NCBI GenBank assembly: GCA_027067055.1
Contig: JAMOMK010000114.1
Location: forward strand, 124,001 to 188,000
Length of the DNA: 64,000 nucleotides
Reading direction: 5' to 3'
From: Lysobacterales bacterium
GTDB lineage: Bacteria > Pseudomonadota > Gammaproteobacteria > Xanthomonadales > Marinicellaceae
This document shows positions 8,693-49,229 of this stretch, in pieces. The notes under the pieces are model-generated. The model had not been told where the DNA came from and did no database searches. It was given only the letters and a program-made list of their open reading frames with translations. Both the position numbers and the translations under genes were made by a program. Positions within the stretch are counted from its first letter, which is position 1. Every line of letters starts with the position of its first letter.

Positions 8693-8975
8693 AAGTAGCC
8701 CATGTTTGCGCTTAGGATTAAGCGCGCGTATTATAACAAAATTAATTATAAAACACTAATTAGCGTTTGCTTATATAAAAACCTTTACACAACTCGTGGA
8801 GCTTTTTTACAACTTTTTTCCACCCCCTTGAATTGCGGTATTATGCTGCCGGGTTAATAAAAGTATGCTGTCTTTATTAATTTAGATTGATAAATTTATT
8901 GCTACTCTCTAATGAATCAAGTGCGCCATATTGGACTCATTGCTTACTTACAATAGGTTGTTAAATTGATAATAG

Positions 8976-8994: not shown

Positions 8995-9010
8995 TGTAAA
9001 TATATTTACA
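8995..9010. promoter_or_regulatory. Perfect 16-bp palindrome TGTAAATATATTTACA (operator candidate)
   Basis: TGTAAA-TATA-TTTACA lies between the CRP-type site and the -35 box. The same TGTAAA-N4-TTTACA design recurs at 16099-16114 over the DUF6502 promoter. The regulator is unknown; the TyrR box has the same half-sites but N6 spacing. Confidence 0.65.
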
Positions 9011-9046: not shown

Positions 9047-9093
9047 TAGCGGCAACACAAATATAAAGAGTGCTAGAAACATTTGAGGTAATT

Positions 9094-10230
9094 ATGAAAA
9101 ATAGAACACAATCAAGAAAAATTGAACTTGTTAAAACGCAAGTGGAAAATAATATTCAGATACAGCCATTGCCGGTTGAGCTGGATACATGTAAGCGTGC
9201 ATTTACCACAAGAAATGTTAACTTAGATGATGCGCAAACATTAGTAACGGGAGAGGTGAAGCCTAAGGCGGGAGACTTGGTACTTTGTGAGGTGACTCGT
9301 TTAAGACAACATTGTCGTATTGAACAGCCAAATGGTCGAAGAAGTCGGATGTTTGTGAAGGATAAAATAGTTGTCTGTTATGGAAACCGTTATGCCCCTG
9401 ACCAATTTGAATCTATTGTTCCAGAAGATTTAAGTGCTTGTCATTTAGTTGCTGGCGGTGGTGTAGCCTCTCATATGCGCTTTAAAAGCCCTAAAGTGAA
9501 ACCTGCAACAGAGATTCAGCCATTGGGTTTGTTGGGAAATAAAAATGGAGTTGTATTGAATTTAGAGCAGTATAATGTTTTAAATAGCCCTCAAGTTACT
9601 TCATCAAAGGATATTCCAATTCTTTTAGTTTCTGGCTCTTCAATGAATGCAGGCAAGACGACCACTGTTGCAAGTCTAATCAGAGGTTTTGTTGCCGATG
9701 GGTTTAATGTCTCTGCGGCAAAGGTAACTGGTACGGGTTCTGGTGGAGATTTATGGCATTTTATAGATGCCGGTGTTTCGGCAGCTATTGATTTTACCGA
9801 TGCTGGCTTGGTCTCAACTTATTTGGTGTCTAATCAAAGTTTAGTAAAACTATTTGATGAAATGATAGCTCATTTAAAAACACCCCAAACTGATGTGATT
9901 GTAGTCGAAGTAGCAGATGGTATATTGCAAGGAGAAACAAAGGCTTTGCTTGAATCCTCAGAAATAATTAATGCAACAACAGCCATGATTTATACTGCTG
10001 GTGATAGTTCGTCAGCACTTTATGGAGATAATTGGTTGCAATCTTTGGGCTATAACGTATTGGGTATATCCGGTGTTGTTTCATCTAACCCGCTGGGAGT
10101 GCAAGAAGTTGAGAAAATGACTTCAACGCCAATCTTTAAGAAAAAAGAAACAGTAGCTGCTGGATTTGGCCATCATTTATTTGATTTGTTGTCAGCATCA
10201 AGTTTAGCAACAAGAAGCGTTAAAAAATAA
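9094..10230 (+). CDS. P-loop NTPase (DUF1611/dethiobiotin synthetase-like) of unknown function
   Basis: First gene of a five-gene operon. The ATG at 9094 has GAGGT five nt upstream, so it is preferred over the GTG at 9070. The N-terminal third looks beta-rich and barrel-like (AGDLVLCEVTRLRQHCRIE, then YGNRYAPDQFE). A small linker follows. The C-terminal half, from about residue 175, has Walker A GSSMNAGKTTT and looks like a CobQ/BioD-type P-loop ligase domain, with AAKVTGTGSGGD, the acidic DAGLVSTY and VVEVADGILQGET motifs. The arrangement resembles DUF1611-type proteins, some of which are ATP-dependent ligases acting on small carboxylates; the substrate here is not deducible. No signal peptide. 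Context with an exporter, hydrolase and porin suggests a role in making or handling a small molecule that crosses the envelope. Confidence 0.8.
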   Translation: MKNRTQSRKIELVKTQVENNIQIQPLPVELDTCKRAFTTRNVNLDDAQTLVTGEVKPKAGDLVLCEVTRLRQHCRIEQPNGRRSRMFVKDKIVVCYGNRYAPDQFESIVPEDLSACHLVAGGGVASHMRFKSPKVKPATEIQPLGLLGNKNGVVLNLEQYNVLNSPQVTSSKDIPILLVSGSSMNAGKTTTVASLIRGFVADGFNVSAAKVTGTGSGGDLWHFIDAGVSAAIDFTDAGLVSTYLVSNQSLVKLFDEMIAHLKTPQTDVIVVEVADGILQGETKALLESSEIINATTAMIYTAGDSSSALYGDNWLQSLGYNVLGISGVVSSNPLGVQEVEKMTSTPIFKKKETVAAGFGHHLFDLLSASSLATRSVKK

Positions 10231-10236
10231 TTAATT

Positions 10237-11910
10237 ATGAAAAACCAGTTTTCACCTTTTAACCCACCGGCTCGTTTTTGGAAAAAGTCAAAGTTTTCAA
10301 TAGCGCAGCTGATAACTAATGGTTTATTAAAATCATTAGTGGTTGTGGGAAGTTATTATTGGGTGAAAAAGTTGGCTTCACAAATAAGAAATCAGCAAGA
10401 AATAAATATAATGACTATTGTTTATTTATTAATTGCTGCTTTATTAATAATAGCTTTGCGAGTTCATGAACGATATGTTTCTGAAAAAATGTCACAAAGC
10501 TATATTAATTCCATTCGTTCCAGTTTGTTAAAGCGTTTAATGCGAGCATCTGTTAGAGATATACAGGCTAAGACAATTGGTAATTTATCTTCGCGCTTGG
10601 CAGGTGACTTATCGGCATTAAAGCGTTGGTTAAGTTTAGGCATTTCTCGATTGATTACTCATAGCTTGTTGTTGGCACTAACAACATTACTGATTTTTAA
10701 GGTTAATGTGTTATTGGGTATGACAATATTGATTACAATAGTAGCACTTGTTGCACTATCTGTGTATTTTGGTAGTTTTCTAAAAAATAGTATTAAGTTA
10801 GTGAGAAGAAATCGGATTGCCATTCATAGTTTGTTGGTTGAAAGGCTGTCTTCTTTGGCAATGATTCGAGCAATGGGTAGGGAAGGTTATGAAGTTGCAC
10901 GAATAAATAAACAAGCACGAAAGTTAGAAAAGAACATTGCAAAGCAAGGTGTGTTCTTGGGTTTGTTGCGAGGTATAGGTGATTCATCTTCACTTATATT
11001 AATTAGTGTTTTCTTTGTTTTTAATGGACTTAATAACCACATACTTGCATTAGATGAGATAACAGCACTCATTAGTATTATTTTATTTCTAAATTCTCCA
11101 ATAAGAGAACTCGGTCGTTTGCAAGAGTATTATCAAGGGGCAAAGTTATCAATTTCAAAAATTCAAGAGCTGTATGCCATTCCTCGAATTGTTAGGGGCA
11201 GAAGCTCATTAACAACAATAGAAGAAGATGCAACATCATTAGGACGAATAGTTTTTAGAGATGTTAATGTTCGAGGTATATTTTCGCATTTATCAGTAAA
11301 TGCTAAAAAAGGGGATCATATTGCACTAACAGGCGCAAATGGTTCGGGCAAAAGCACTTTAATTCAGCTTGTTCTGGGTTTAATAAAAGTTGATTCAGGT
11401 CTTGTACGTATCAATGGAAATCTTCCAAATAAAACATCTTCACAAGACAGGGCTGCTCATATCGGTTATGCCTCAGCCGAGGCGGGATTGATAAGAGGGA
11501 ACTTATTTAACAATCTAACTTATCGAAAGGCTAAAGATCAAATCAAAGGAGTAGATGAGTTGTTGAGTTTTTGTCAACTTGATGGGTTGGTTGAGAAGCT
11601 ACCAAAAGGTTTAAATAGTAAAATTTTGGAGAGTGGTAAAAATTTATCTTCAGGTGAAAAAGCAAGGATATTGTTATTTAGGGCTTTATTAGGAGCACCA
11701 GCGATATTGATTTTAGATGAGCCTGAGAGCTATCTAGATAAACAGGGCTTGAAAATAATTAAAAATTTATTAGCCGATTATAAAGGCACTATTGTTATGG
11801 CTACTCATAATAGTGAATTAATAAAACTCTGCCATAAAGAGTGGGATATTGACATGTTAAAGAAAAACAACTCTTCAGTGAGATTGATAAATGATTATGC
11901 AAAAAGATAA
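10237..11910 (+). CDS. ABC exporter, fused permease-ATPase
   Basis: 557 residues, one half-transporter that must dimerise. Residues about 15-320 carry the ABC-type I transmembrane domain with six hydrophobic segments (for example TIVYLLIAALLIIALRV and VLLGMTILITIVALVALSV). The ATPase domain shows Walker A GANGSGKST, signature LSSGEKAR, Walker B ILILDEPES, and the switch His in MATHN. The Q-loop region reads IGYASAEAGLIRG where exporters normally have a Gln (GYVPQ), so the Q-loop residue appears replaced. Substrate unknown; fused exporters of this layout move lipids, peptides or small metabolites out of the cytoplasm. The gene starts 6 bp after the NTPase gene and overlaps the hydrolase gene by 20 bp. 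Confidence 0.92.
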   Translation: MKNQFSPFNPPARFWKKSKFSIAQLITNGLLKSLVVVGSYYWVKKLASQIRNQQEINIMTIVYLLIAALLIIALRVHERYVSEKMSQSYINSIRSSLLKRLMRASVRDIQAKTIGNLSSRLAGDLSALKRWLSLGISRLITHSLLLALTTLLIFKVNVLLGMTILITIVALVALSVYFGSFLKNSIKLVRRNRIAIHSLLVERLSSLAMIRAMGREGYEVARINKQARKLEKNIAKQGVFLGLLRGIGDSSSLILISVFFVFNGLNNHILALDEITALISIILFLNSPIRELGRLQEYYQGAKLSISKIQELYAIPRIVRGRSSLTTIEEDATSLGRIVFRDVNVRGIFSHLSVNAKKGDHIALTGANGSGKSTLIQLVLGLIKVDSGLVRINGNLPNKTSSQDRAAHIGYASAEAGLIRGNLFNNLTYRKAKDQIKGVDELLSFCQLDGLVEKLPKGLNSKILESGKNLSSGEKARILLFRALLGAPAILILDEPESYLDKQGLKIIKNLLADYKGTIVMATHNSELIKLCHKEWDIDMLKKNNSSVRLINDYAKR

Positions 11911-12706
11911 TAAAAATACAAAAAAGATTAATACAATAATTAAAAAAGAAAGTTTATCTTCCTGTGATCAATTGGAATACTATTACCTCAAAAGTGATAA
12001 GGAGATAAATAATATAGTGGTGTTGGTTCATGGTATTTCACGTAATGCTCGCGAAATAATTGCCAATTTTAGTGAACATATGGCAAAAGATACATTGCTA
12101 ATAGCGCCAGTTTTTACAAAAGAATTTGCCACAGACTACCAGCGTTTAGGTCGTCAGAACAAGGGGCCTAGAGCTGACTATATTCTACAGGCAATTCTTA
12201 ATGAAATTTCAAGTGAGCATGCTGTAAAAACCAACAAAATTAATTTGTTTGGATTTTCTGCAGGCGCACAATTTGTACACCGTTATGCATTTGCCCACCC
12301 ATCTCATGTCAATAAAGTGGCAATAGTCGCCGCTGGTTGGTATACCATGCCAAAATTTGATGAATACTATCCTTATGGATTAAAGCTAAGGGATGAGTTT
12401 ACAGATATTGACTTTGAAATGATGCGTTTCTTAAGAGTTAAGTATAGAGTTTATGTTGGAGAAAAAGATTACCTCCGTGATAAATCACTTAATAAAAGTA
12501 AGAGAGTTGATCGATTGCAAGGGCAAAACAGGTTGGAACGTGCTGAGAATTGGACAAATGAAATGAATCAATGCTTTAAAAATAAATCAATTAAAAACAG
12601 AGTAAGTTTAGAGATATTAGATAACGTTACGCATGATTTTGGTTTGGCTGATACGTTAGGCCACGTATGTGGGAAAGTGTCTCGTTGGTTTCAGCAAACT
12701 GATTAA
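11891..12706 (+). CDS. Alpha/beta hydrolase
   Basis: 271 residues, no signal peptide, so probably cytoplasmic. Seen: the oxyanion-hole strand VVLVHGISRNAREI, the nucleophile elbow GFSAGAQ with Ser at its centre, an acidic candidate in VYVGEKDYLRD, and the C-terminal His in DNVTHDFG. This gives a plausible Ser-Asp-His triad. The region around the elbow recalls esterases of the poly(3-hydroxybutyrate) depolymerase/feruloyl esterase type, but without their signal peptide. An ATG at 11897 is an alternative start. The gene overlaps the ABC gene by 20 bp and ends 2 bp before the porin gene, so it belongs to the same transcript. It may hydrolyse an ester or amide precursor of the transported compound (inference). 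Confidence 0.85.
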   Translation: MIMQKDNKNTKKINTIIKKESLSSCDQLEYYYLKSDKEINNIVVLVHGISRNAREIIANFSEHMAKDTLLIAPVFTKEFATDYQRLGRQNKGPRADYILQAILNEISSEHAVKTNKINLFGFSAGAQFVHRYAFAHPSHVNKVAIVAAGWYTMPKFDEYYPYGLKLRDEFTDIDFEMMRFLRVKYRVYVGEKDYLRDKSLNKSKRVDRLQGQNRLERAENWTNEMNQCFKNKSIKNRVSLEILDNVTHDFGLADTLGHVCGKVSRWFQQTD

Positions 12707-12708
12707 AG

Positions 12709-13812
12709 ATGAAAAATTTATTTTGTATACTATTGCTAGGCTTTAGCTGCTTGCTTGATGCTAAAGTAACCTACAACTTAGGTTCGAGAATGGAAGTTGA
12801 TTATAGTTTTTATGATGATGATCAAGGGCTTTTCCCTGAAAGTGAATGGGGTGTTAGACGTTTTCGATTTGGCTTATTTACCAAGTTCAATGAAAAGTTT
12901 TCAAGTTACTTTCAGTCGGATTTTTCAAATTCAGTTAGAACTCGCAAAGGTTCGACACAAGCTGCTTGGTTGCGTTATCGACCTAATAAGCGGAATGAAT
13001 TCTATCTTGGTAAGATGGAAATGCCCTTTAGCCTTGATAGTGTGAGTAATTCAAAGCACCACTTTTTTATGGAGCGTTCAATCGCTAGTTCCTTGAGTGA
13101 GCGTTTTGGAACTGGAGTTAATTTTGTTCATTATGGCAAAGGTTGGAATATGCGCATAGGGCTATTTGGCGATGATCATTATGACTTGGGTAGCTCAAGT
13201 TTTTATGGGAAAGCTTTAACCACACGTTTTGGTAAAAAGATTAAAATAGCAGATAATAAATTCTATTTTGGAGCTTCTTTTCAATACCGAAAACCAAACA
13301 CAAGAATTAGGGTTAGAACATTGCCAGAATCTAGTACGTTTAACCAAAGATTGCTTGATACAGGCAGGATATATTTTGTTGACTCGATACAAAGATATGG
13401 TTTAGAAGCTTTATGGAAGAAAAAGTCATGGACAATGCAGGCAGAATATATTGCCAATAAATTTACCAGAGGCTTTGTCCAGCCAGACCTTCAGTATGAT
13501 GGTGGGTACTTTATAGTTAGCAAGATATTTAATGGTAAAAGGCGTTTTAGTTTTCGAAAAGGAGAATGGGCAGCAACAAAAGTAAAAAAATACAGGACGT
13601 GGGAAATATCAGCACGTTACAGTTATTTAGATTTAACTGACAAGAGCCTTAATGCGGGATATGAAGAAAATATATCTCTAGGCATTAATTATTATTTCAC
13701 CAGTAAAAATCGCTTAATGTTTAATTATGTACAAGCGAAAGCAACACCAAATAGCTTTGGAATTAACCAAACACTTAATATAGTTCAAGCAAGATTTCAA
13801 CTTGAATTTTAA
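12709..13812 (+). CDS. Phosphate-selective-porin-like (OprO/OprP family) outer-membrane protein
   Basis: 367 residues with a signal peptide (MKNLFCILLLGFSCLLDA). The mature part is rich in alternating amphipathic strands and opens with a YNLGSRMEVDYSFYDDD strand. The segments VRRFRFGLFTKFNEKFSSYFQ, FYLGKMEMPFSLD and FMERSIASSLSERF resemble the OprO/OprP family, in which 'G...PFGLE...S...FLERS' is characteristic. It ends in phenylalanine (ARFQLEF), the usual Bam recognition end. It would form a channel in the outer membrane for the substrate of the operon; anion selectivity cannot be judged. It lies 2 bp after the hydrolase and 12 bp before the secreted protein. Confidence 0.85.
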   Translation: MKNLFCILLLGFSCLLDAKVTYNLGSRMEVDYSFYDDDQGLFPESEWGVRRFRFGLFTKFNEKFSSYFQSDFSNSVRTRKGSTQAAWLRYRPNKRNEFYLGKMEMPFSLDSVSNSKHHFFMERSIASSLSERFGTGVNFVHYGKGWNMRIGLFGDDHYDLGSSSFYGKALTTRFGKKIKIADNKFYFGASFQYRKPNTRIRVRTLPESSTFNQRLLDTGRIYFVDSIQRYGLEALWKKKSWTMQAEYIANKFTRGFVQPDLQYDGGYFIVSKIFNGKRRFSFRKGEWAATKVKKYRTWEISARYSYLDLTDKSLNAGYEENISLGINYYFTSKNRLMFNYVQAKATPNSFGINQTLNIVQARFQLEF

Positions 13813-13824
13813 TCAGAGGATATT

Positions 13825-16068
13825 ATGAAAAATTTTATTTCACTCATGTTTTTAATGGTCAGTTTGCAGGTAGCTGCAATTAATGTGACAACTCCAATTC
13901 GCACAACTCATGTTGGGCCGAATTTAAACAAAAATTACGATGCAGAGGAATCTGCTGTTGCATTTAACGTGCAAGACAATGAATATTTAATTGTCTTTGA
14001 GGGTACAGATTCTATAACGGGTGCTGGCGCAAGTATACAAACAGCAGTAGAAATATACGCTCAGCGAATAAATGCATCGACTAATGCACCAATTGCGGGT
14101 CTAATTAAGGTTAGTGCAATGGGACCATCAGGGGATACTAAGTACGATGCTAGAAAACCTGATATTGCATACAATCCTCAAACTAATGAATATATGGTTG
14201 TTTGGTATGGTGATACTAATTCAGTCAGTGGTGCAAATACAGTAGAAGGAGAGTTTGAGATTTGGGGCAGAAGAATTAATGCTGGTAATGGTCAATTCAT
14301 TGGTGCGCAATTTAAAATTTCAGACATGGGCCCTACTGCCAACCGTTCCTATGATGCGATTGATCCTGCGATTGCTTATAACGAGATTAATAATAATTTT
14401 ATGGTGGTATGGCGGGGTGAAGATGGAAGCTTGGCTAATGCTATTGGTGAGTTTGAGATTTATGGGCAACAATTAAACTCAAATGGTAGTCAAATTGGCT
14501 CTAATGATTTTAAAATTTCAAGCATGGGAATAGATGGTCAAGCAATTTATGATGCGTATTCTCCTGCTATTGCCTACAACAAAACAAACAATGAATTTAT
14601 GGTGGTTTGGTATGGAGATAATAACACGAATGGTCATGTTAGTGGTGAGTTTGAAATTTATGGGCAAAGATTAAATGGCAGCTCTGGTGCAGAAGTGGGT
14701 ACAAATGATTTTCAAATATCAGAGACAGGAGTTCCTGGGTTTGCCACACGTTCTGCTCAATTTCCATCCGTGGCATGGAATGGTGTTGACAACCAATACC
14801 TTGTTGTTTGGTCAGCAGATCCAGCAACAGGTGTTTATGTAGGTAATGAATTTGAAATTTTTGGACAAACTTTGGCTGCCAATGGCGGTGAAATTGGAGA
14901 GGATGATTTTGCCATAAGTCATATCGGTCCAGCTGGAAATAACAACTTTGATGCCTTTAGGCCAAATATCAAGTATTTGAAGCAATCACAAGAATATCTG
15001 GTTGCTTACCGTGCGGATACAGGTGTTGATGGAGAGTTTGAAATATTCATGCAAAGACTGGATGCAAAAACACAAGTCAGATTAGGGCAAACAAGTCAAA
15101 GACTTTCTCATGCTGGTCCAGATGGATTGCTTACTTTTGATGCTAGGCGAGTAGATCTTGGGTACAATAGTAATAGTGGCGAAGTATTGGTCTTATGGGA
15201 GCAAGAGGATGATAACTCCTCGCAAGTGTTGGGCGAGTTGGAAATATATGCTAGTACAGTGAGTCCTTCAGATTTTACAATTGATTATACTGCATCGGGT
15301 TCGTGGTTTGATACCAATAGAAGTGGAGAAGGTTATATACTTGAAATGTTGCCCAATAATGGCGTGCTGATGATGTGGTTTACCTACTTACCAAATCAAG
15401 CAGAGCAGGCATGGTTGATTGGAACGGGTACTTACAAAGATAATCGAATTATATTAGAAAACGTACAAATAACCTCTGGTGGGGTTTTTGGGCCTACATT
15501 TGATCCTGCAGCGGTGCAAAGACAGGTTTGGGGTGATATTTCTTTCGAGTTTGATGGTTGTAACAGCGGAACCATTAATTACAATGCATTAAGTAGTAGT
15601 TATGGTGATGGTGATCATGTAACAACTCGATTAACCAGCTTATCTGGAGCAAATTGTACAACACATGCTCAGTCAACGGATGTTTTAGATGGAATATCTG
15701 GTGCTTGGTATGACCCATCACATGATGGTGAAGGCTGGTTTTTAGAGTATCTTGGCAATAATAATGTCCTGATGTATTGGTTTTCATACGATAACCAAGG
15801 TAATCAAAAGTGGATGTTAGATGTCGGAACGATTGACGATAATCATCTCATAACTTTTGCCAATATAAGTCAGAAGAATGGTACATTTTTTGGAGATAAT
15901 TTTAACCCGGATAATGTAAATAATATCGACTGGGGAACAATGCAAATGCAGATAAATGATTGTAATTCACTCTCTGTGAGTTATGACTCTATTATAGGTA
16001 TCTATGGTCAGGGTGCATTAAATGCTAGCAAAATAGTAGGTATTGATCAAATCGAGTGTGGATTATAG
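13825..16068 (+). CDS. Large secreted repeat protein
   Basis: 747 residues with a signal peptide (MKNFISLMFLMVSLQVAA). Residues about 25-470 contain seven repeats of roughly 65 residues, each with a 'MGP...YDA..P.IAYN..NNEYMVVWYGD' core followed by 'GEFEIYGQRLN', probably blades of a beta-propeller. The C-terminal part carries two copies of a domain of about 105 residues (SGSWFDTNRSGEGYILEML and SGAWYDPSHDGEGWFLEYL). Each has a paired Cys region (FDGCNSGTINY / INDCNSLSVSY); such domains recur in secreted gammaproteobacterial proteins. No C-terminal sorting signal is seen. The GAGGATATT upstream of the ATG is a good ribosome binding site. It closes the operon, so a surface or extracellular partner role for the exporter/porin system is plausible. 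Confidence 0.82.
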   Translation: MKNFISLMFLMVSLQVAAINVTTPIRTTHVGPNLNKNYDAEESAVAFNVQDNEYLIVFEGTDSITGAGASIQTAVEIYAQRINASTNAPIAGLIKVSAMGPSGDTKYDARKPDIAYNPQTNEYMVVWYGDTNSVSGANTVEGEFEIWGRRINAGNGQFIGAQFKISDMGPTANRSYDAIDPAIAYNEINNNFMVVWRGEDGSLANAIGEFEIYGQQLNSNGSQIGSNDFKISSMGIDGQAIYDAYSPAIAYNKTNNEFMVVWYGDNNTNGHVSGEFEIYGQRLNGSSGAEVGTNDFQISETGVPGFATRSAQFPSVAWNGVDNQYLVVWSADPATGVYVGNEFEIFGQTLAANGGEIGEDDFAISHIGPAGNNNFDAFRPNIKYLKQSQEYLVAYRADTGVDGEFEIFMQRLDAKTQVRLGQTSQRLSHAGPDGLLTFDARRVDLGYNSNSGEVLVLWEQEDDNSSQVLGELEIYASTVSPSDFTIDYTASGSWFDTNRSGEGYILEMLPNNGVLMMWFTYLPNQAEQAWLIGTGTYKDNRIILENVQITSGGVFGPTFDPAAVQRQVWGDISFEFDGCNSGTINYNALSSSYGDGDHVTTRLTSLSGANCTTHAQSTDVLDGISGAWYDPSHDGEGWFLEYLGNNNVLMYWFSYDNQGNQKWMLDVGTIDDNHLITFANISQKNGTFFGDNFNPDNVNNIDWGTMQMQINDCNSLSVSYDSIIGIYGQGALNASKIVGIDQIECGL

Positions 16069-16098: not shown

Positions 16099-16114
16099 TG
16101 TAAAAATCTTTACA
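16099..16114. promoter_or_regulatory. Palindrome TGTAAA-AATC-TTTACA (operator candidate)
   Basis: Same half-sites and spacing as 8995-9010. Its right half, TTTACA, doubles as the -35 box of the DUF6502 promoter, an arrangement suited to repression. Confidence 0.6.
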
Positions 16115-16137
16115 AATATATCTGGTAAAAGTATAAT
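16109..16137 (+). promoter_or_regulatory. Sigma-70-type promoter of DUF6502-DUF5666
   Basis: TTTACA (16109-16114), exactly 17 bp, then a consensus TATAAT (16132-16137). The start point would fall near 16143, about 33 nt before the ATG at 16176. Confidence 0.65.
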
Positions 16138-16175
16138 GATATACTTAACTCTACATTATATATCTATTGATAAAA

Positions 16176-17000
16176 ATGTCCAAAATTGCTGAACTCAATC
16201 GTCTATTAAGCTATATGGCTTACCGTGTTTTTAAACCTGTAGTCATCTTGTTCTTGAGAAATTCTGTTCCCTTCCAAACAGCATCGGATTGGTTGAAAAG
16301 AATTTATGTGGATGTGGCATTGGGAAATAAAGAGTTTCGAATCAATCCCGATAAAAAACAAACCAAAACAAGAGTCGCTGTTTTAACAGGTCTTTCTCGT
16401 GTTGAGATAGATCGTGTGCTAAAAATAGAAAAACCACTGGAGGTGACTGAGCAAAAGTGGAATCGTGCAATCAAAGTTTTATCTGGCTGGACAAGTAATG
16501 ATAAATATTTAGATAAAAGTAGTTTGCCATTATCTTTGCCTATTGTGGGAGATGTGTCTTTCACCACTTTGGTGGAAGAATATAGTGGTGGAGCAACCAT
16601 GAGGTCGGTATTGGATGAGTTGGTCCATGTTAAATCTGTTGTACTTAATAGCAATAAGGTGAAAATTTTGAGGAATGACTATGCAATTATTCCAAGTGAG
16701 CAGAAGCTATTGAATCTTGAAATATCTGGGATGTCAACGGGAGACCTTTTAAATACATTAGTTTTTAATGATAAAATAGAAGATGCTAACCAGAAGAGAT
16801 TTCAAAAACTTGTGGCTGGATTACATATACCAAAAAATGAAGTTGAGGATGCTAAGCAATTTATTTACAAAGAAACCAATAAGCTTTTAGTTTCAATAGA
16901 TAAAAAATTAACACCTTTGGCAAGTGAAACATCAAGTAACACCTATACAATTGGGCTAGGTGCATATTACTTTGAGGAGAAAACTAATGAAGAAAAATAG
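16176..17000 (+). CDS. DUF6502 family protein (probable HTH regulator)
   Basis: Chosen start is the ATG at 16176 (MSKIAELNRLLSYMAYRV) rather than the TTG at 16167. The 274-residue product shows the DUF6502 opening (LSYMAYRVFKPVVILFLR) and a segment TKTRVAVLTGLSRVEIDRVL near residue 70. The latter has the size and pattern of a helix-turn-helix, with 'SR(V/L)AVLTGLxRxEV' typical of the family. This makes a DNA-binding role likely, although no member is characterised to my knowledge. It overlaps the DUF5666 gene by 14 bp, so the two are translationally coupled. Its own promoter holds the TGTAAA-N4-TTTACA palindrome, a candidate autoregulatory site. Confidence 0.78.
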   Translation: MSKIAELNRLLSYMAYRVFKPVVILFLRNSVPFQTASDWLKRIYVDVALGNKEFRINPDKKQTKTRVAVLTGLSRVEIDRVLKIEKPLEVTEQKWNRAIKVLSGWTSNDKYLDKSSLPLSLPIVGDVSFTTLVEEYSGGATMRSVLDELVHVKSVVLNSNKVKILRNDYAIIPSEQKLLNLEISGMSTGDLLNTLVFNDKIEDANQKRFQKLVAGLHIPKNEVEDAKQFIYKETNKLLVSIDKKLTPLASETSSNTYTIGLGAYYFEEKTNEEK

Positions 17001-18498
17001 TAAAATACATAACATTATAATAATATTATTTCTTATAATATCAAGTAGTCTTATTGCACAAACACTAACTGTGAACGGTATTAGAGATTTCTCAATAGAT
17101 AATAATACAATAGTTCGCAAAGATGGAGTTATTGTTAGCCAACCATCAATTATTATTGGTACAGGAGGCTTTAAAGTCCAATTTAGAGTTGCAAAAGATG
17201 TGAACCCTACAATCTCTCAAGGAACTTTAGTTGAGCTTGATTTGATTTCCGATATAAAAGGTCCAGTAACATCACTTGGTCCACTAAGGGTACTTGATCA
17301 AAGAGTTTTTACTACTGCAGAAACGGTTTTAGACAATATTGCCTCTGTTGCTAGTTTGCAACAAGGTGACATTGTTTCTGTAAGTGGTGCAATTAATTCA
17401 GGTGATAATTCCATGCAATTATCCCGGTTAGAGTTAAATAATACATTAACGCAGTGGAAGCTTCGCGGTTTTGCACGAAACATCACGGCGACTGATTTTA
17501 CCATCGGCAGTTTAGTCATTAATACCAATGCAGTAACAGCAACAGATTGTATCAATGGCTTTGTTGAAAATGTATTTGTAGAGATTAAAGCAACGCCTGA
17601 TGCCAGTTATGTAACAGGTAATGCATTAACAACACTAACAAGTATCCAATGCCAAACTCCAGATGTTTACCAAGACCCAAACGACAGCATCCCAGTTGTG
17701 GTGGAGGCAATGGTTTCAGAGATTATTGATTTATCTTCTTTTAGAATTAATGATTTAGTAATATTTTTTGATGCTAATACTAGTTTTGATAATGGCGAGG
17801 TCGAACATATTGATGTAGGAACCAAGCTAGAAATACAGGGAACTCTTGATACCAATACGCGATTTATTACTGCCGCAACGATACGTTTTGTTCATCATAG
17901 AGTTAAGTTTGTTGCACCGATAATGCCAGCAGATATAACTATTGGAGAAAGTATCACATTTTTTGGCAAGCAAATATTCATAACACCACAAACGAGAGAT
18001 GATGATGATATTATTTCATCTGGGCTTTCATCAGAACGACAAATTGAAGTTCGTGGGTTTATGGATTCTGCAGGAAACTTATTTGCACGAAGGGTTAAAG
18101 ATAAGGGTACCCCCGATAGCCAAGACATTGAATTAAGAGGAGATATTACTGCCATTAATCAGCCCACGGTTGAGCTCAACGGTATAAGTATTGATGCATC
18201 TACTTCACTGTTTGAAATTGATGATGACTATGTTGACATTAATGTATTTTTCTCGATGATTCAGGTAGGGATGCAAATGGAAATTGAAGAGGCTGTATAT
18301 GATGCAAGTACACAGATAATATCTGGTGGCACAATAGAACTTGTAGAGCAAGAATTAGAAGACAACCCTGATGGTGCAGCAAACACGACAAGCTCAATAC
18401 CGATAATAAAAGAGATAATTGGCATCGGTGGTATTGGATTAGCAACAGTCACAAAAGTTGAAATAATCGAGCTAATATTTGGTGCTGGATTTGAATAA
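16987..18498 (+). CDS. DUF5666-repeat exported protein with IFxxGFE C-terminus
   Basis: The ATG at 16987 is preferred because GAGGAG lies 6 nt upstream, inside the end of DUF6502. A signal peptide (IIIILFLIISSSLIAQ) precedes several DUF5666-type beta domains. These follow the pattern 'G.V..i....f.i..l.v..d..T.f..g....' and 'V.G..d..G...A..v', for example RGFARNITATDFTIGSLVIN, IEVRGFMDSAGNLFARRV and GDITAINQPTVELNGISID. The protein ends IELIFGAGFE, close to the IFxDGFE tails of the proteins at 52013 and 50296. DUF6502/DUF5666 pairs recur in gammaproteobacteria (recollection). Probable location is the periplasm or cell surface; molecular function is unknown. Confidence 0.8.
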   Translation: MKKNSKIHNIIIILFLIISSSLIAQTLTVNGIRDFSIDNNTIVRKDGVIVSQPSIIIGTGGFKVQFRVAKDVNPTISQGTLVELDLISDIKGPVTSLGPLRVLDQRVFTTAETVLDNIASVASLQQGDIVSVSGAINSGDNSMQLSRLELNNTLTQWKLRGFARNITATDFTIGSLVINTNAVTATDCINGFVENVFVEIKATPDASYVTGNALTTLTSIQCQTPDVYQDPNDSIPVVVEAMVSEIIDLSSFRINDLVIFFDANTSFDNGEVEHIDVGTKLEIQGTLDTNTRFITAATIRFVHHRVKFVAPIMPADITIGESITFFGKQIFITPQTRDDDDIISSGLSSERQIEVRGFMDSAGNLFARRVKDKGTPDSQDIELRGDITAINQPTVELNGISIDASTSLFEIDDDYVDINVFFSMIQVGMQMEIEEAVYDASTQIISGGTIELVEQELEDNPDGAANTTSSIPIIKEIIGIGGIGLATVTKVEIIELIFGAGFE

Positions 18499-18664: not shown

Positions 18665-20314
18665 ATGACAGAACAACCAAAACAAATTGGCAGATTTCCT
18701 ATTATTGGCACCTTAGGGGTCGGTGGAATGGGAGTTGTGTACCTTGGAAAGGATCCTGATATTGGTCGAAAAGTTGCCATTAAGGTGCTGCATACAACAG
18801 GCGATAAAGAAGCGTTAGAACGCTTTAAAAATGAAGCGCGCACTATGGGAGAAATCTCTCACCCCAATATTGTTATCTTGTTGGAATATGGCATCGATGA
18901 CAATAAGCCATTTTTAGTTATGGAATATTTGGATGGTTTGTCTTTAGAAAAGTGGATTAATCAACCGCACACACTAGAAGAACATAAAAAAGTCTTATTG
19001 AACTTATGCAGCGCCATTAGTTTTGCACACCGAAAAGAAATTCTTCATCGAGACTTAAAGCCAGGCAATGTCCAGGTGTTGCCAACAGGTGATGCAAAAT
19101 TATTAGATTTTGGTATTGCAACAGGTGAAAATACAGGCTTAACAGCAACAGGTTTTTTTATTGGAACACCAAAATATTTAGCGCCAGAAATTCTTCAAGA
19201 TACCACTCATACAAAATCATCGGATAGTTATTCGCTGGGTTTATTGGCCTATACCATGCTTAGCGGCAATAACCCATTTGCTACAGATACATTTGAAGCA
19301 ACAATGACACGATTGTTGACTAAAATTCCAGTTTCATTAAATAAAATCAATCCAAATATTCCGATTGAATTATCAAATGTAGTAGATAAGTATTTAGATA
19401 AAAATTCAGAGCAGAGACCGAACTCTCCCAAGGACCTACAAATGGCGTTGGAATTAATTGTCAAGCCAATAGTTTTAAAGAAGACAATTGTACCAAACGC
19501 AGACTCAAAAGATTTGAGGTCACAGGAAAGGACAGTTCTTATTGGAGAGTCTCCTAAAAGCAATACAAAATGGTTGGCATTGTTTGCACTGTTTATTGTT
19601 ATGGTTGCAGCTGGACTTTTTTATAAAAATTATCTAGATAATCAAACAGCAATGGAATTGTCTAAGCAAAAAATTGCAAAAGAAGCGGCAAGAAAAAAAG
19701 CCGAGGTCTTAAGGTTGAAAAAAGAGGCAGCCACCAAAGCAGAGAAAGAAAAACAAGCGGTACAAGAGCTGGCAAGAATTGAAAAATTAAAAAAAGCAGC
19801 GCAAGAGCAAAAAGAAAAATTGGCAGAAATTAGTGCTAAACAAGAGCCGCAGAAAAGACCCGTTCAAAAACCTAAGAAAAAACCTATTCAGGTGGTCAAA
19901 AAGCCTAAGAAGGAAGTAAATCCTGTAGTGGAAGATGAGTACAAACCACCTGTTATTGTCTATCAAAGGCCCAAAAAGAAAGTAAATAATAAACCTGTTT
20001 TTCAATTGCCACAACTTACCCACAATGAAAAGAAAGTGACATTAAAGACACGTTCTGATACACAAATATCTAGAGGTACGACTAAGTCAATTACCATTGA
20101 ATTACCAATAGGTATCACTATTGATAATTTCAAAATTATGCGGGGTCTTTCAGGGTTCAATCAAGTGGAAATTAGAAAAATTAAAAATTTACAAGATAAC
20201 TTGGTTAAAATTACTTTATACGCTCAATCAAATGCCTCAATGGGAGATTTTTCCCTTATTGGATTTTACCAAAACAAAAAAACCAACCCGTTATTAATGG
20301 AAGTGACCTTATGA
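18665..20314 (+). CDS. Membrane Ser/Thr protein kinase (PknB-like)
   Basis: 549 residues. The kinase domain spans about 10-268: glycine loop GVGGMGVVY, Lys40 in VAIKVL, catalytic HRDLKPGN (128-135), DFG (148-150) and APE (173-175). All key residues are present, so it should be active. A single membrane helix follows (303-320, WLALFALFIVMVAAGLFY). Then comes a long Lys/Glu/Ala-rich coiled coil (about 330-405), a Pro/Lys-rich stretch and a small C-terminal beta domain outside the membrane. The stop overlaps the next start (ATGA), which couples it to the porin-like protein at 20311, itself with a coiled coil; the two may interact. No clear ribosome binding site precedes the ATG at 18665. Confidence 0.92.
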   Translation: MTEQPKQIGRFPIIGTLGVGGMGVVYLGKDPDIGRKVAIKVLHTTGDKEALERFKNEARTMGEISHPNIVILLEYGIDDNKPFLVMEYLDGLSLEKWINQPHTLEEHKKVLLNLCSAISFAHRKEILHRDLKPGNVQVLPTGDAKLLDFGIATGENTGLTATGFFIGTPKYLAPEILQDTTHTKSSDSYSLGLLAYTMLSGNNPFATDTFEATMTRLLTKIPVSLNKINPNIPIELSNVVDKYLDKNSEQRPNSPKDLQMALELIVKPIVLKKTIVPNADSKDLRSQERTVLIGESPKSNTKWLALFALFIVMVAAGLFYKNYLDNQTAMELSKQKIAKEAARKKAEVLRLKKEAATKAEKEKQAVQELARIEKLKKAAQEQKEKLAEISAKQEPQKRPVQKPKKKPIQVVKKPKKEVNPVVEDEYKPPVIVYQRPKKKVNNKPVFQLPQLTHNEKKVTLKTRSDTQISRGTTKSITIELPIGITIDNFKIMRGLSGFNQVEIRKIKNLQDNLVKITLYAQSNASMGDFSLIGFYQNKKTNPLLMEVTL

Positions 20315-21624
20315 AAAAAATAGTAATTATTCTTTTGACAAGTAGTTTGATTTTACTCACTAATGTTGGAGTAGCTGCTGACTACCAAACAAAAATCAAA
20401 AGATTGGAGGCTGGATTTGCTAGTCTTCAACAGCAAATAAATGACCTTAGAAAAGATATGGGCAGCGATGTTTCGGAGGAAAATGCATTAAGGTTGGCAA
20501 ATTTAGAGGCTTATGCTGTTCAATTAAATGAAGTTTTAAGTGAAGTCCAAGAGAAAATTGAAGAGAACAAAAGTGAAGTGGCACGAATTACAACTGAACA
20601 AAGTAATAAGCCGAATATTGGTATTTATGGAACAATAACGGCTGGTAAAGTCAATGGGCAAGATTCAATCATTGACGGTCAATCATTTGAGTTAATTGTT
20701 AGTGGTCAGCCACACAAAAGAATCAGTTATTTTACTGAACTGGAGTTTGAACGTGCTGCTGCTGTTGGAACATCACGAGGTGGTGAGGTTTTAGTGGAGC
20801 AAGCTTATACCGATATTCAATTAACGTCGTGGATGAATTTTAGAGGTGGTATATTGCTTGTACCATTTGGCAACATCGAAAGAGATCACTTTGCACCTAT
20901 TCGTGAAGTTGTTTCTCAGCCACTTACCAGTTATGCGATTGCACCTGCTGCTTGGTCTGAAAATGGATTTGGAATTAATGGAAGATTTAATCTTTCTGAC
21001 TCATGGATAGCGGATTATCAGGCATATGTTATAGCTGGCTTAGATGATAATATCACCACAACAGGAATGAGAAGAGCAAGACAAGGCTTTGGTCTCGATA
21101 ATAATAACAGTAAAGCATTTGCTGGCAAGTTGGTTTTGCAGAATACATCAGGATTTAATGTTGGTTTAAGTTATTACAGTGGTGCCTATAACGATTCTGG
21201 AACCAAGGATATTACAGGCTTTAATATTGATTTTGATTACAAAAGAGATTGGTTTGAAATTCTTGGAGAGTACACAGATATGGATATTGAGCAAGAGACT
21301 GGTGCCGACACCCATCTAGATGGGTACTATTTAAGAAATATTGTTTCAATAAATGGACTGTTGCCTGAAAACTTCTTAGGTGCAGATTTTCCACATGCAC
21401 GTTTGAGTTTTGTCACTCAGTATGATGAAGCGACAATTGAAAATTTCTTTGACTCATCAATAGCAGATAATTATGAAAGGCGTATAACTCTTGGATTAAG
21501 ATTGCAGCCAACCTCTTCTGTTATGCTAAATATTAACTACGAAGATGCTAATGCAAGAGGCCCTGATAGAATATTACGTGGTAATGATGAGTTGTGGATA
21601 TTCTCATTGGGGTATGTGTTTTAA
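20311..21624 (+). CDS. Outer-membrane porin-like protein with N-terminal coiled coil
   Basis: 437 residues. A signal peptide (MKKIVIILLTSSLILLTNVG) is followed by a coiled coil of about 75 residues (KIKRLEAGFASLQQQINDL through LSEVQEKIEENKSEV), then a beta-barrel part starting NIGIYGTITAGKVNGQD. The segments FTELEFERAA, VEQAYTDIQLTSWMNFRGG and LVPFGNIERDHFAP resemble OprO/OprP-type and maltoporin-like barrels. A coiled coil before the barrel could trimerise and reach through peptidoglycan. It ends in phenylalanine (FSLGYVF). Translation is coupled to the upstream kinase by the ATGA overlap, an unusual pairing. Confidence 0.82.
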   Translation: MKKIVIILLTSSLILLTNVGVAADYQTKIKRLEAGFASLQQQINDLRKDMGSDVSEENALRLANLEAYAVQLNEVLSEVQEKIEENKSEVARITTEQSNKPNIGIYGTITAGKVNGQDSIIDGQSFELIVSGQPHKRISYFTELEFERAAAVGTSRGGEVLVEQAYTDIQLTSWMNFRGGILLVPFGNIERDHFAPIREVVSQPLTSYAIAPAAWSENGFGINGRFNLSDSWIADYQAYVIAGLDDNITTTGMRRARQGFGLDNNNSKAFAGKLVLQNTSGFNVGLSYYSGAYNDSGTKDITGFNIDFDYKRDWFEILGEYTDMDIEQETGADTHLDGYYLRNIVSINGLLPENFLGADFPHARLSFVTQYDEATIENFFDSSIADNYERRITLGLRLQPTSSVMLNINYEDANARGPDRILRGNDELWIFSLGYVF

Positions 21625-43309: not shown

Positions 43310-43621
43310 TTTTTTAATACTGCTTTTTCATAAAAGTAATCAATTTAAATCATCAATACTTCATCAAAACAGTCTTTCAGTACTAAAGTCCAGCCCCCAG
43401 TGTTGAGAGTTTACTTGTATAAGTAAAAATTACACAATGGAGGGAATTTCAATCAATCCATAAGACTAGTAAATTTCTTCTTATGTGAAATAATTTAGAC
43501 TAGATTGCCCACTGTATTTCACATAGAGCCATTTTTAAATTAAAAATCGTGACTTTTGGGACTGGTTTATTCATATAAAATAGCTATAATCCGAGTTGTT
43601 TTAAAACTATGGGATAATCAC

Positions 43622-45766
43622 GTGAAATTTAATGCTATATCACTCGCTCTAAGCGTTGTTATAATGTCTTCTTGCACTAAGATGGAAACAAAAAAAGCCA
43701 TGACTTCAACAAATGATCTTTCAAAAACCAATCCATTATTAATGCAATGGACAGGTCCTTATGGTGGTACGCCTGCTTTTGACAAAATGGACATTGCTGA
43801 TGTTGAATCGGCATTTGATTATGCTATGAAACAAAACTTGGCTGGTGTTGATGCTATTGCCAACAATTCAAAGCCTGCGACTTTTGCAAATACAGTTGAA
43901 GCTTTAGAAAAGTCAGGCAAGTTATTAGACAGAGGGTTTGTTTTCTATGGGTTATGGAGTGGTAGTTTGTCATCCCCTGAGTTTAGAAAAATTCAAGCAA
44001 AATTAACCCCTAAGTTTTCTGATATGTCATCTAAAATCCAACAAAATGAAAAATTGTTTAAGCGGGTTAAGACTGTTTATGATAACAGTTTAAAAAACCC
44101 TTTAGCAGCAGATCAACAACGGGTTGTGCAATTGACTTATGAAGGATTCGCCATGAGTGGTGCGGATTTAAGCAAAGCAGATAAGGAAAAATACGCGGCA
44201 ATTAACAAAGAACTCTCTGGTATTTACAATAATTTCGCGAATAACATCTTGCACGATGAAGAAAATTACGCAACATTTTTTAACAAGTATCAATTGTCAG
44301 GACTGCCTGAGTCTTATGTGAAATCAGCAGCAGCGACAGCAGAATCTCGTGGCAAATCAGGCATGTATGCGGTAGTTAATACACGCTCATCAATGGATCC
44401 ATTTTTGACTTATTCGGATGAACGAGAATTGCGCAAATCAGTTTGGGAAAATTATTATTCACGCGGTGATAATGGTGGTGAGTTTGATAATAATGCCAAC
44501 ATCACCAAAATATTACAGCTACGCAAAGCAAAGGTTAATCTTTTAGGATTTGATAATTATGCTCAGTGGCGCTTGCAAAATCGCATGGCTAAAAAACCTG
44601 AAAATGCATTAAATTTACTTAAAGCTGTTTGGCCTGCTGCCATTGCACGAGTTGATGAAGAGGTGGCTGATATGCAAGTCATTGCCAATAAGGATAACAT
44701 CACTATAAAACCATGGGATTACCGTTATTATGCTGAAAAAGTCCGTAAAGATAAATACGCTTTAGACTCAAATGAAGTCAAACAATATTTAGAACTTAAC
44801 AACCTCACCAATGCTCTGCATTATGTCGCTGGGCGTTTGTTTAATTTCAATTTCACGGCATTACCTGAAGGTGAGGTTAGTGTTTATCACCCAGATGTTA
44901 AGGTTTGGAAAGTCACTGATAAAACAACGGATAAGCTTGTAGGCTTATGGTATCTTGATCCGTATGCTCGCAAAGGTAAACGCTCTGGTGCTTGGGCAAA
45001 CACATTCCGGTCACATACGACCTTTGAAGGTGAAAAAACTGTTTTATCGACGAATAATGCTAATTATGTCAAACCAGCGGCAGGTGATAAGACTTTAATC
45101 TCTTGGGATGATGCTGAAACGTTCTTTCATGAATTTGGTCATGCACTACACTTTTTATCTTCTAATGTACGTTATCCAACTCTAAATGGTGGTGTACGTG
45201 ATTATACCGAGTTTCAATCACAATTATTAGAACGTTGGTTGTCAACGGACGAAGTGATTAGTCGTTATCTAAAGCATTACCAAACAGGCGAACCTATTCC
45301 GAAACAATTGGTTGCAAAAATCAAAAAAGCAGCAACATTTAACCAAGGCTTTGGCACAACAGAGTACTTGGCCTCAGCATTAATGGATATGGAGTTGCAT
45401 TTAGCAGACCCAACAAATCTTGATGCTGATAAATTTGAACGCGAAACATTAGCAAAATTAAATATGCCAAGTCAATTGCCCATGCGCCACCGCACACCAC
45501 AGTTTGGTCATGTTTTTTCAGGCGAAGGTTATGCCACAGCTTATTACGGTTATATGTGGGCAGATGTGCTAACTGCAGATGCCAGCGAAGCCTTTGCTGA
45601 AGCACCTGGCGGGTTTTATGATAAAGAATTGTCAGTAAAATTGGTTAAGTACCTATTTGCTCCACGTAACTCAATTGACCCAGCAGAAGCATTCAGGTTG
45701 TTTAGAGGTCGTGATGCCAAGATTGATGCTTTGATGCGTGACAGAGGATTTCCTGTACCAAAGTAA
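43622..45766 (+). CDS. dcp: Peptidyl-dipeptidase (M3 family), lipoprotein
   Basis: Removes C-terminal dipeptides from peptides; zinc-dependent. The GTG at 43622 (VKFNAISLALSVVIMSSC) gives a short signal peptide with a lipobox ending MSSC, so I prefer it over the longer open frame from 43556. The mature enzyme shows family features TGPYGGTPAFDKM, WENYYSRGDNGGEFDNN, the long helical channel and the zinc site FFHEFGHALHFLSS (HExxH), with the third ligand in DYTEFQSQLLE. The C-terminal RHRTPQFGHVFSGEGYATAYYGYMWA is characteristic of Dcp. Lipid anchoring places it in the periplasm, as in some Xanthomonadales-type Dcp; E. coli Dcp is soluble. Confidence 0.93.
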   Translation: MKFNAISLALSVVIMSSCTKMETKKAMTSTNDLSKTNPLLMQWTGPYGGTPAFDKMDIADVESAFDYAMKQNLAGVDAIANNSKPATFANTVEALEKSGKLLDRGFVFYGLWSGSLSSPEFRKIQAKLTPKFSDMSSKIQQNEKLFKRVKTVYDNSLKNPLAADQQRVVQLTYEGFAMSGADLSKADKEKYAAINKELSGIYNNFANNILHDEENYATFFNKYQLSGLPESYVKSAAATAESRGKSGMYAVVNTRSSMDPFLTYSDERELRKSVWENYYSRGDNGGEFDNNANITKILQLRKAKVNLLGFDNYAQWRLQNRMAKKPENALNLLKAVWPAAIARVDEEVADMQVIANKDNITIKPWDYRYYAEKVRKDKYALDSNEVKQYLELNNLTNALHYVAGRLFNFNFTALPEGEVSVYHPDVKVWKVTDKTTDKLVGLWYLDPYARKGKRSGAWANTFRSHTTFEGEKTVLSTNNANYVKPAAGDKTLISWDDAETFFHEFGHALHFLSSNVRYPTLNGGVRDYTEFQSQLLERWLSTDEVISRYLKHYQTGEPIPKQLVAKIKKAATFNQGFGTTEYLASALMDMELHLADPTNLDADKFERETLAKLNMPSQLPMRHRTPQFGHVFSGEGYATAYYGYMWADVLTADASEAFAEAPGGFYDKELSVKLVKYLFAPRNSIDPAEAFRLFRGRDAKIDALMRDRGFPVPK

Positions 45767-47015: not shown

Positions 47016-49229
47016 ATGAAAAAACTAGTCTTTCTTTTACTTATTAATTCAATGAGTTCTCTTGCCATTAACTTAGATGGCATTCTTGATGATACACAAT
47101 GGCAAGGTGCAGAACATTTTAACAAAATGCTTTTAGTAAAACCTTATATTTTGTCAAAAGCGCAATTCCAAACGGATATTTCAGTTACTTCAGATGAAAA
47201 AGGGATTTATTTTGGCATTAAGAATTTTCAACCTGCGGATACAAGAAACACTGATTCATCTGCCCGAGACCAACGAATTGGGTCAGATAAAAATCAAATT
47301 ATTCTTGATTTTGATAATAATGGCATTGCGGCTTATTCTTTTGAAATAGGTGTTGGTGGCTCGATTAGAGATGGTATTTTTAGCAACGAAAATAATTTCT
47401 CGAATGAGTGGGATGGTAATTGGTCAGCAAAAACAAGTCAAAATGATGAGTACTGGGTTAGTGAAGTATTTATTCCATGGGATGTGGTTTCAATGAAAAA
47501 ATCAGAGTCTGATATCCGCACACTTAAGTGGTATGTTTCTCGAACAATTGTTGATATTAATGAAGTTTATGCCAGTGTTGCTGCTGATAATACACGCCAA
47601 CGTTTTATGTCAGAATTTGCAGAGTTGAGTATCAAAGATTTTGCTACCTCTTCCTTTTCTTTGTTTGGATATGCCACAGGACGACGTGATTTCCACAATC
47701 AAGAGAGTTCTTCTGATGTAGGGTTGGATTTGTTTTGGAAATCAGGCAATGGCAAGCAATTAACAGCAACAATCAACCCTGATTTTGGTCAAATTGAAAG
47801 TGATAGGTTGGTTGTTAATTTTTCTGCTACCGAAGTGTTTTTCAATGAGCGTCGTCCATTTTTCACCGAAAACCAATCCTTGTTTAATATTCAAGGAGCT
47901 AATGGCTTGCGTCTTTTGCACACGCGCAGAATTGGTTCTCGACCTGATGCAGGAACAGGTGATGCCAGTGATATTGATGCGGCTATTAAATACACTGACA
48001 ACCGTGATAATATTACTTATGGTATGTTAGCAGCATTTGAGTCCAGTGGCAATGGATTTGCGGGCAGAGATTATTTTGCAGGACGAGTATTGCACCGATC
48101 ACAAAGACAGTCCTTTGGTTTAACCACTTCCTTTGTCGATCGAGTTGATATAAATCGAACAGCAACTAGCCTGGCTTTAGATTATGAGTATTTATTGGGA
48201 GAAGACATTAAGTTCAAAAGTTTGATAGTCGCTGCTTCAACTAAACAAGATGAAGAAAAGACAAATGGTAGGAGCGTCTGGTTAAATGTTCAGCACCAAA
48301 TTAACCCTAACCACAGTCACTATTTTGAGATTAGTCATTACGATGATGATTTTGAAATTAATGATTTTGGATTTTTGCCACGCAACAATTTAAATACATT
48401 TCGCTACCATCAAACTATCAAACAAACTGAATTTAATGAGTCGGCAGCAACCCAGCAGCGTATATTCAACCTTGATTTCTTTCATCAAGGTAATGACTCG
48501 GGAGACACTATTTCCCGAACTTATCAATTAAGTAGCACCAAGGAATTTAAAAATGCGACATCAATGCAGTGGCAAATTCGTTACAAAGAAAAAGGTGTTG
48601 ATGACTTGATTAGTCGAGGACACGGCAACCTAAATACAGGTTCGGGTTATGAATTACGTGCGATATACCGCAGTTCTAATGTCAATAAGTTTCGTTACCA
48701 TGGCTTCTATGAGTACCTCAATTATTTTAGTGAAGGAAGAGGTGTAGAAGTGCATTTACATCCCAGTTATTATTTTACTGACAACTACAGTATTTCTTTA
48801 AGTGTATTTTATTCGGATTATGGTGATTGGGTAAACTGGGAAGGTGATGAGTTATTTGCACGATACAAAAGAAAGCTACTCAATAATTCTCTGGATTTTA
48901 ATGCCAACATAAGCCCAAAACAAGAATTGCGTATGCGCTTTCAATGGCTTGCAATTGATGCACAGGCTAATAAAGAATACCGTCTAGATTCAGTAGGGGG
49001 TTTAGTTGATACAGGTAATACTGTTAATGATTTTAGCCTATCTAATACAGCACTACAAATTCGCTACCGTTATGAAATAGCGCCACTATCAAATGTCTAT
49101 GTTGTATATTCTCGTGGAGGGCAAATTTTTGAAGAAAATAGCAATAGCCTTGGTAATTTATTTACCCCTGGACTTTCCAATGTCACAGGTAATAACTTTT
49201 TGGTAAAAGTTAGGTATAAGTTTATGTAA
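47016..49229 (+). CDS. DUF5916 outer-membrane protein with N-terminal CBM9-like domain
   Basis: 737 residues with a signal peptide (MKKLVFLLLINSMSSLA). Residues about 18-205 form a carbohydrate-binding-module-9-like beta domain (LDGILDDTQWQGAEHFNKML, DQRIGSDKNQIILDFDNN, SNEWDGNWSAKTSQNDEYWV). The DUF5916 barrel follows, with the hallmark ATINPDFGQIESDRLVVN and FFNERRPFFTENQSLF. Strand-rich sequence continues to a C-terminal KVRYKFM. DUF5916 proteins are large outer-membrane barrels of unknown substrate found with peptide or polysaccharide utilisation genes. Monocistronic here. Confidence 0.85.
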   Translation: MKKLVFLLLINSMSSLAINLDGILDDTQWQGAEHFNKMLLVKPYILSKAQFQTDISVTSDEKGIYFGIKNFQPADTRNTDSSARDQRIGSDKNQIILDFDNNGIAAYSFEIGVGGSIRDGIFSNENNFSNEWDGNWSAKTSQNDEYWVSEVFIPWDVVSMKKSESDIRTLKWYVSRTIVDINEVYASVAADNTRQRFMSEFAELSIKDFATSSFSLFGYATGRRDFHNQESSSDVGLDLFWKSGNGKQLTATINPDFGQIESDRLVVNFSATEVFFNERRPFFTENQSLFNIQGANGLRLLHTRRIGSRPDAGTGDASDIDAAIKYTDNRDNITYGMLAAFESSGNGFAGRDYFAGRVLHRSQRQSFGLTTSFVDRVDINRTATSLALDYEYLLGEDIKFKSLIVAASTKQDEEKTNGRSVWLNVQHQINPNHSHYFEISHYDDDFEINDFGFLPRNNLNTFRYHQTIKQTEFNESAATQQRIFNLDFFHQGNDSGDTISRTYQLSSTKEFKNATSMQWQIRYKEKGVDDLISRGHGNLNTGSGYELRAIYRSSNVNKFRYHGFYEYLNYFSEGRGVEVHLHPSYYFTDNYSISLSVFYSDYGDWVNWEGDELFARYKRKLLNNSLDFNANISPKQELRMRFQWLAIDAQANKEYRLDSVGGLVDTGNTVNDFSLSNTALQIRYRYEIAPLSNVYVVYSRGGQIFEENSNSLGNLFTPGLSNVTGNNFLVKVRYKFM

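Follow-up and report, generated by a model that had tools for sequence, protein, structure and literature searches.

A conserved five-gene operon pairs a BioD-like P-loop NTPase with an ABC exporter in a Lysobacterales bacterium

Five genes in a 64,000-nucleotide stretch of Lysobacterales DNA (the window) form one operon. They are followed by two genes preceded by the same operator-like palindrome as the operon itself. The window comes from G000, an incomplete 3.42-Mb assembly; its close relatives are MAGs that carry the label Lysobacterales or Alcanivoracaceae. The features are as follows.

8995–9010, no strand: operator-like palindrome TGTAAATATATTTACA, exact match, starting at −99 from the NTPase ATG
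9094–10230, + strand: NTPase, 378 aa, with an N-terminal beta-rich domain and a BioD/CTP-synthetase/DUF1611-like P-loop domain; unnamed family
10237–11910, + strand: ABC exporter half-transporter, 557 aa, a type IV exporter transmembrane region fused to an ATPase
11891–12706, + strand: alpha/beta hydrolase, 271 aa, predicted cytosolic, related to poly(aspartic acid) hydrolase-1 (PahZ1) and LpqC
12709–13812, + strand: OprO/OprP-family outer-membrane porin, 367 aa, with signal peptide and hydrophobic N-terminus (PF07396, E=1.4e-40)
13825–16068, + strand: secreted propeller protein, 747 aa, by predicted structure; accessory, in close relatives only
16099–16114, no strand: operator-like palindrome TGTAAAAATCTTTACA, ahead of DUF6502, overlapping the −35 of a promoter-like site (16109–16137)
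16167–17000, + strand: DUF6502 protein (PF20112, E=2e-33), putative DNA-binding regulator
16960–18498, + strand: exported DUF5666 protein (PF18914, E=2.2e-26, 4 copies) with hydrophobic N-terminus, overlapping DUF6502

All five operon reading frames were confirmed on the + strand. Their spacings are 6, −20, 2 and 12 bp, exactly the values in an earlier note made on this DNA from its letters alone. The NTPase gene is read from the ATG at 9094; its longest ORF opens with a GTG at 9070. Promoter and terminator scans of the window performed no better than chance. Elsewhere in the window, two closely spaced ORFs of 736 and 737 aa (43556–45766 and 47016–49229) are possible paralogues.

Within the family, NTPase homologues were compared together with their surroundings, in loci of at most 20 kb. 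The order NTPase-ABC-hydrolase-porin-propeller is intact in L021, L022, L023, L024, L026, L027, L028, L030, and L031, which represent two genera. It is also kept in L032, from another family, at identities of 52, 42, 38, 40, and 45%, so the five-gene order spans three genera and two families. L025, from the same genus as the window, lacks the propeller gene. The flanks vary: prpB/prpC are present in only part of the genus, and other genes elsewhere. The single operon proposed in the earlier note is supported.

For the class-wide survey, 369 genomes were searched with profiles and the loci inspected. NTPase and ABC genes occur together in 16 of these genomes, mostly with reading frames that share 1, 4, or more bases. 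A phylum-wide search added one further clear ABC-type case, L118 (G509), and L033 holds the pair at a contig end. Overall, at least 28 proteobacterial genomes, drawn from 16 families, contain the pair. The linkage of the five genes is non-random, since their order recurs elsewhere and the first two are paired in 28 genomes of 16 families. Hydrolase and porin follow the pair in L079, L081, L082, L085, L086, and L087, the L085 hydrolase frame being interrupted by a stop. After the pair, L077, L078, and L088 carry the hydrolase; L092 has the porin only. Neither was recognised after the pair in L083, L084, L090, and L093, and no propeller gene was found in the ABC-type loci of the 369-genome sample. 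Hydrolase and porin are the usual followers of the pair, and the propeller is a local addition. One genome, G334, has ABC-hydrolase-porin twice (L080, L081) along with two NTPases, one of which lies downstream of its copy, beyond an IS66-like transposase gene.

The earlier expectation that the first three genes stay linked holds in different genera and, in many cases, in different families. The accompanying description of a complete route was overstated: since hydrolase or porin is missing in some families, the invariant core is the NTPase-ABC pair alone, and the hydrolase is not essential. The same applies to the proposed extracellular partner, the propeller protein, which is accessory because it is missing from most relatives and from L025.

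The NTPase matched no Pfam or NCBIfam model above cut-off, and a sequence search of solved structures gave nothing convincing and no enzyme of known reaction. An AlphaFold2 model is good for the P-loop half only, with pLDDT mostly 70–92 over residues 171–369 and some weaker loops; the N-terminal half is poorly modelled. By predicted structure, the protein belongs to the BioD/CTP synthetase fold group, with matches to BioD (Z 15.8 over 190 residues), CTP synthetase (15.4), and TM0796/DUF1611 (15.1). Residues 171–369 superpose on BioD and CTP synthetase at an rmsd of 3.2–3.4 over 186–190 residues, which places it among SIMIBI P-loop proteins and agrees with the BioD/CobQ-like class of the earlier note. 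Known members of the BioD/CTP-synthetase fold carry out ATP-driven C-N bond formation. The same fold also occurs in the non-ligases SRP GTPases, ApbC, and HypB. The NTPase shares the P-loop fold and a GxxxxxGKT Walker A with BioD, CTP synthetase, and CobQ-type ligases; it differs from them in its 18% identity, its extra N-terminal beta-rich domain, and a neighbourhood free of biotin, pyrimidine, and cobalamin genes. Membership of BioD (dethiobiotin synthetase) itself was not found, as the NCBIfam bioD model was not listed among the matches. Motifs kept in the family are Walker A GSSMNAGKT, KVTGTG, DFTDAG, and VEVADG. The DUF1611 protein TM0796 (2g0t) is the sole top structural match that covers residues 41–369 of the model, and it has parallel motifs. 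Assignment to DUF1611 (PF07755) or to DgcN of the D-glutamate pathway, a DUF1611 member, was rejected (12.7 bits against a gathering score of 25; hhalign probability 33%), leaving DUF1611 as a structural cousin only. The ATP-dependent synthetic step suggested in the earlier note is supported as far as the fold of ATP-dependent ligases goes; the chemistry itself we infer.

A maximum-likelihood tree of 43 NTPases separates them by gene context. Context changes three times on the tree, the fewest possible, and none of 200 label shuffles gave as low a number. The ABC-linked clade holds 28 rows from 16 families (support 93/87), the arginine-operon clade 10 rows (96/99), and the M20-linked clade 4 rows (100/100); L094 is a long-branch row with no ABC, arginine, or M20 partner. 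In L034–L036, L064/L095, L065/L096, L067, L068, and L070–L072, the NTPase gene belongs to an arginine operon, as a rule with argG on one side and argC on the other, and L069 has an arginine-operon context too. In L037, L073, L074, and L120, it directly follows a gene for a CPG2-like M20-type peptidase. The names argG, argC, and argD, and likewise M20 peptidase, were given by reading translations rather than by family scans.

The arginine clade sits where three families of N-acetylglutamate synthase (NAGS) were looked for and not found. In 11 of 11 arginine-operon genomes, none of the three (ArgJ, NAT domain, ArgA) scored over cut-off. Strong ArgA-model matches in these genomes are ArgB, because only the kinase domain is covered. 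Arginine genes are present in this clade with known NAGS absent, as judged for ArgA, ArgJ, and NAT. Same-order genomes with no NTPase between arg genes (G000, G034, G045) have a NAT-type NAGS. Within the class sample, ArgJ is found in 273/369 genomes and ArgA in 249/369, and all eight arginine-clade genomes lack both; by random draw, the chance of ArgJ missing in all eight is 1.7e-5, a figure that ignores relatedness. ArgA is present in 16/16 ABC-clade genomes of that sample, so the ABC clade is no replacement for it, and the window NTPase is not the NAGS of its host, because the window genome carries its own NAT-type NAGS. Compared with ArgA, ArgJ, and NAGS-K, the NTPase lacks GNAT and AAK domains, and its sister clade sits between argG and argC where these enzymes are missing. 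NAGS of GNAT type, among them S-NAGS, O-NAGS, and C-NAGS, have been described, and the gene for the glutamate-succinylating enzyme of a related succinyl pathway had not been identified at the time of a review (PMC4490483). The arginine-clade NTPase is a candidate for a missing N-acylglutamate synthase.

The ABC protein combines a transmembrane region (PF00664, E=1.1e-23, 84.7 bits) and an ATPase (PF00005, E=9.7e-24, 85 bits) in one chain, both over cut-off, confirming the fused exporter recognised earlier. Its gene adjoins the NTPase gene in the ABC-clade loci whose downstream DNA was read. The nearest models are CydDC, type I secretion, and P-glycoprotein. Those of the thiol exporter CydDC give the top NCBIfam scores (about 170 and 149 bits), far under their cut-offs. 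Identification as CydDC was rejected: the CydD and CydC models reach 169.5 of 435 and 149.1 of 329 bits, and the ABC protein, unlike the CydC/CydD pair, is a single gene with an NTPase partner. A few type IV ABC proteins act as importers. Classification of the operon as a defence system was also rejected, since PADLOC found nothing beyond generic ATPase matches for the ABC protein.

The hydrolase is homologous over nearly its full length to PahZ1 (9o7u, E=1.9e-32) and matches 3d0k (E=1.7e-26), in line with the alpha/beta hydrolase predicted at first reading. Serine 123 (in GFSAGAQ), D193, and H248 are invariant in the alignment, so that the Ser/Asp/His of PahZ1-type enzymes are kept. The bonds that PahZ1 cuts are amides joining beta-linked aspartates (PMC4456602). 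Unlike the setting of PahZ1, the operon lacks a PahZ2-type M20 partner gene, and no PahZ1-type hydrolase was found described in a genomic setting with an exporter. LpqC, in the same hydrolase family, is annotated as a polyester depolymerase. The operon enzyme is predicted to be cytosolic because a hydrophobic N-terminus or signal is missing.

The porin matches Porin_O_P (PF07396) at 140.2 bits against a threshold of 20.9, over positions 2–370 of 370, which upholds its OprP-like naming. Porin_O_P proteins are known from phosphate and polyphosphate uptake. The propeller-like protein of the note is modelled as a seven-bladed beta-propeller over about residues 25–485, followed by C-terminal beta domains at about 490–605 and 622–733. 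In the predicted structure, the blades are seven groups of 3–4 strands, and an N-terminal strand apparently closes the last. Fold matches reach Z 27–35. Function was not assigned from the fold, as the best matches (CylK, YncE, and Photorhabdus lectins) are at 9–15% identity and have only the common seven-bladed fold. A separate ORF in L028 (2986–3978) resembles the C-terminal beta domain, so this domain also occurs in other exported proteins.

Five genes stood as the unit drawn in the earlier note, which overlooked DUF6502-DUF5666 (16167–18498) and the common operator. The palindrome TGTAAANNNNTTTACA (TGTAAAN4TTTACA) is exact ahead of both units, and the 3.42-Mb genome has no other exact copy. 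A control pattern has an equal genome-wide count of two, so the significance of the palindrome comes from placement and conservation, not from number. In the nine same-family loci whose upstream DNA was long enough, it stands at −75 to −203 from the NTPase gene, either exact or off by a single base, and most DUF6502 genes have it ahead too. In the majority of same-family loci, DUF6502 and DUF5666 come after the operon; in L028 they are divergent from it, with one exact palindrome between the units. DUF6502 lies upstream of the operon in L079 and L087. Outside the family, no such palindrome was seen ahead of the NTPase, bar a weak variant in L087. The sequence gives good support to co-regulation of the operon with DUF6502-DUF5666. 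The regulator is likely to be DUF6502, because its alignment keeps an HTH-like stretch (the KQ..SRxAVxTGLxRxExxR region); no paper describing DUF6502 was found. A third palindrome copy with one mismatch (TATAAAAACCTTTACA) lies in the prpB-NTPase intergenic region at 8774–8789. Further downstream, at 18665–21624, the genes for a Ser/Thr protein kinase and for an exported coiled-coil/barrel-like protein of 437 aa overlap; in L021, L022, and L026, too, the kinase gene adjoins DUF5666.

We propose, at a probability of about 0.42, that the cassette makes and exports an amide-linked acidic amino-acid compound, with a PahZ1-related hydrolase and an anion porin. The NTPase would use ATP to convert a glutamate- or aspartate-like amino acid to an amide, either N-acyl or an amide-linked small molecule. 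The ABC protein would act as a homodimer, translationally coupled to the NTPase, and move the product to the periplasm. The cytosolic hydrolase would cut the same kind of amide bond for editing, recycling, or self-protection. The porin would let the anion pass the outer membrane, and the propeller protein, in the window clade only, may bind the product or its target. DUF6502 would act on the TGTAAAN4TTTACA operator ahead of both transcription units. Such a product is suggested by the NTPase fold, the sister-clade partners, and the kind of hydrolase, and export by the exporter-type ABC family. Also counted in favour were the place of the sister clades beside N-acyl-amino-acid genes (argG-NTPase-argC; M20 amidohydrolases), the lack of ArgA, ArgJ, and NAT in the 11 arginine-operon genomes, the kept five-gene order, the shared operators, the anion-type porin family, and the confinement of NTPase-ABC pairing to one tree branch. 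Counted against were an NTPase sequence that matches no enzyme of known reaction, the weak DUF1611 profile tie (33%), the non-ligases of the same fold, the poor N-terminal model, the families that lack the hydrolase, LpqC with its polyester-depolymerase annotation, and the importers among type IV ABC proteins. More broadly, and more doubtfully, the NTPases may constitute a new class of P-loop synthetases that turn amino acids into N-acyl or amide products, divided into three branches: the missing N-acetyl- or N-succinyl-glutamate synthase of arginine operons, an M20 feeder, and the window branch, making an exported amide-linked metabolite via its dedicated ABC-hydrolase-porin cassette.

The same genes could be read in other ways. 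The NTPase may instead serve the ABC protein as an accessory subunit in the cytosol, for gating, loading, or assembly, in a cassette for efflux of anionic metabolites where the hydrolase detoxifies. Overlapping frames in most of the ABC clade, a pair that is the sole invariant part, and the targeting and assembly NTPases among SIMIBI folds (SRP54, ApbC, HypB) all suit this account. However, arginine-operon and M20-adjacent relatives keep the motifs with no adjacent ABC gene, so the family works without a transporter, and the arginine clade occurs in place of known NAGS genes, an indication of catalysis; we consider the account rather unlikely. Somewhat less probable still is uptake, in which porin and ABC protein would import acidic poly(amino acid) or hydroxyalkanoate oligomers for cleavage by the hydrolase in the cytosol, with the NTPase modifying the monomer. 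A signal-less homologue of poly(Asp) hydrolase-1 and LpqC, a porin from an anion-uptake family, and a secreted propeller able to bind substrate would fit, but the ABC protein is exporter-type by its nearest models, and the operon has neither a periplasmic binding protein gene nor a TonB-dependent receptor gene.

Mere co-transcription of unrelated housekeeping genes, which only the varied families of the five proteins favour, is very improbable. Gene order is kept over genera and families despite different flanks, the NTPase context is confined to one tree branch, and the operator pair is private. For the NTPase-ABC pair this explanation already fails, and for hydrolase and porin it largely does; for the propeller it is possible.

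The literature yielded no described system composed of such an NTPase, ABC protein, hydrolase, porin, and propeller, and the earlier remark that no named system has this composition stands. The exported product would probably be a small acidic, amide-linked compound, undescribed so far. With strict partners that follow its phylogeny (exporter, arginine genes, amidohydrolase), the NTPase family provides a handle on such a metabolite in Gammaproteobacteria, many of them known from metagenomes alone. Its arginine clade offers a testable candidate N-acylglutamate synthase for 11 genomes with otherwise complete-looking arginine operons.
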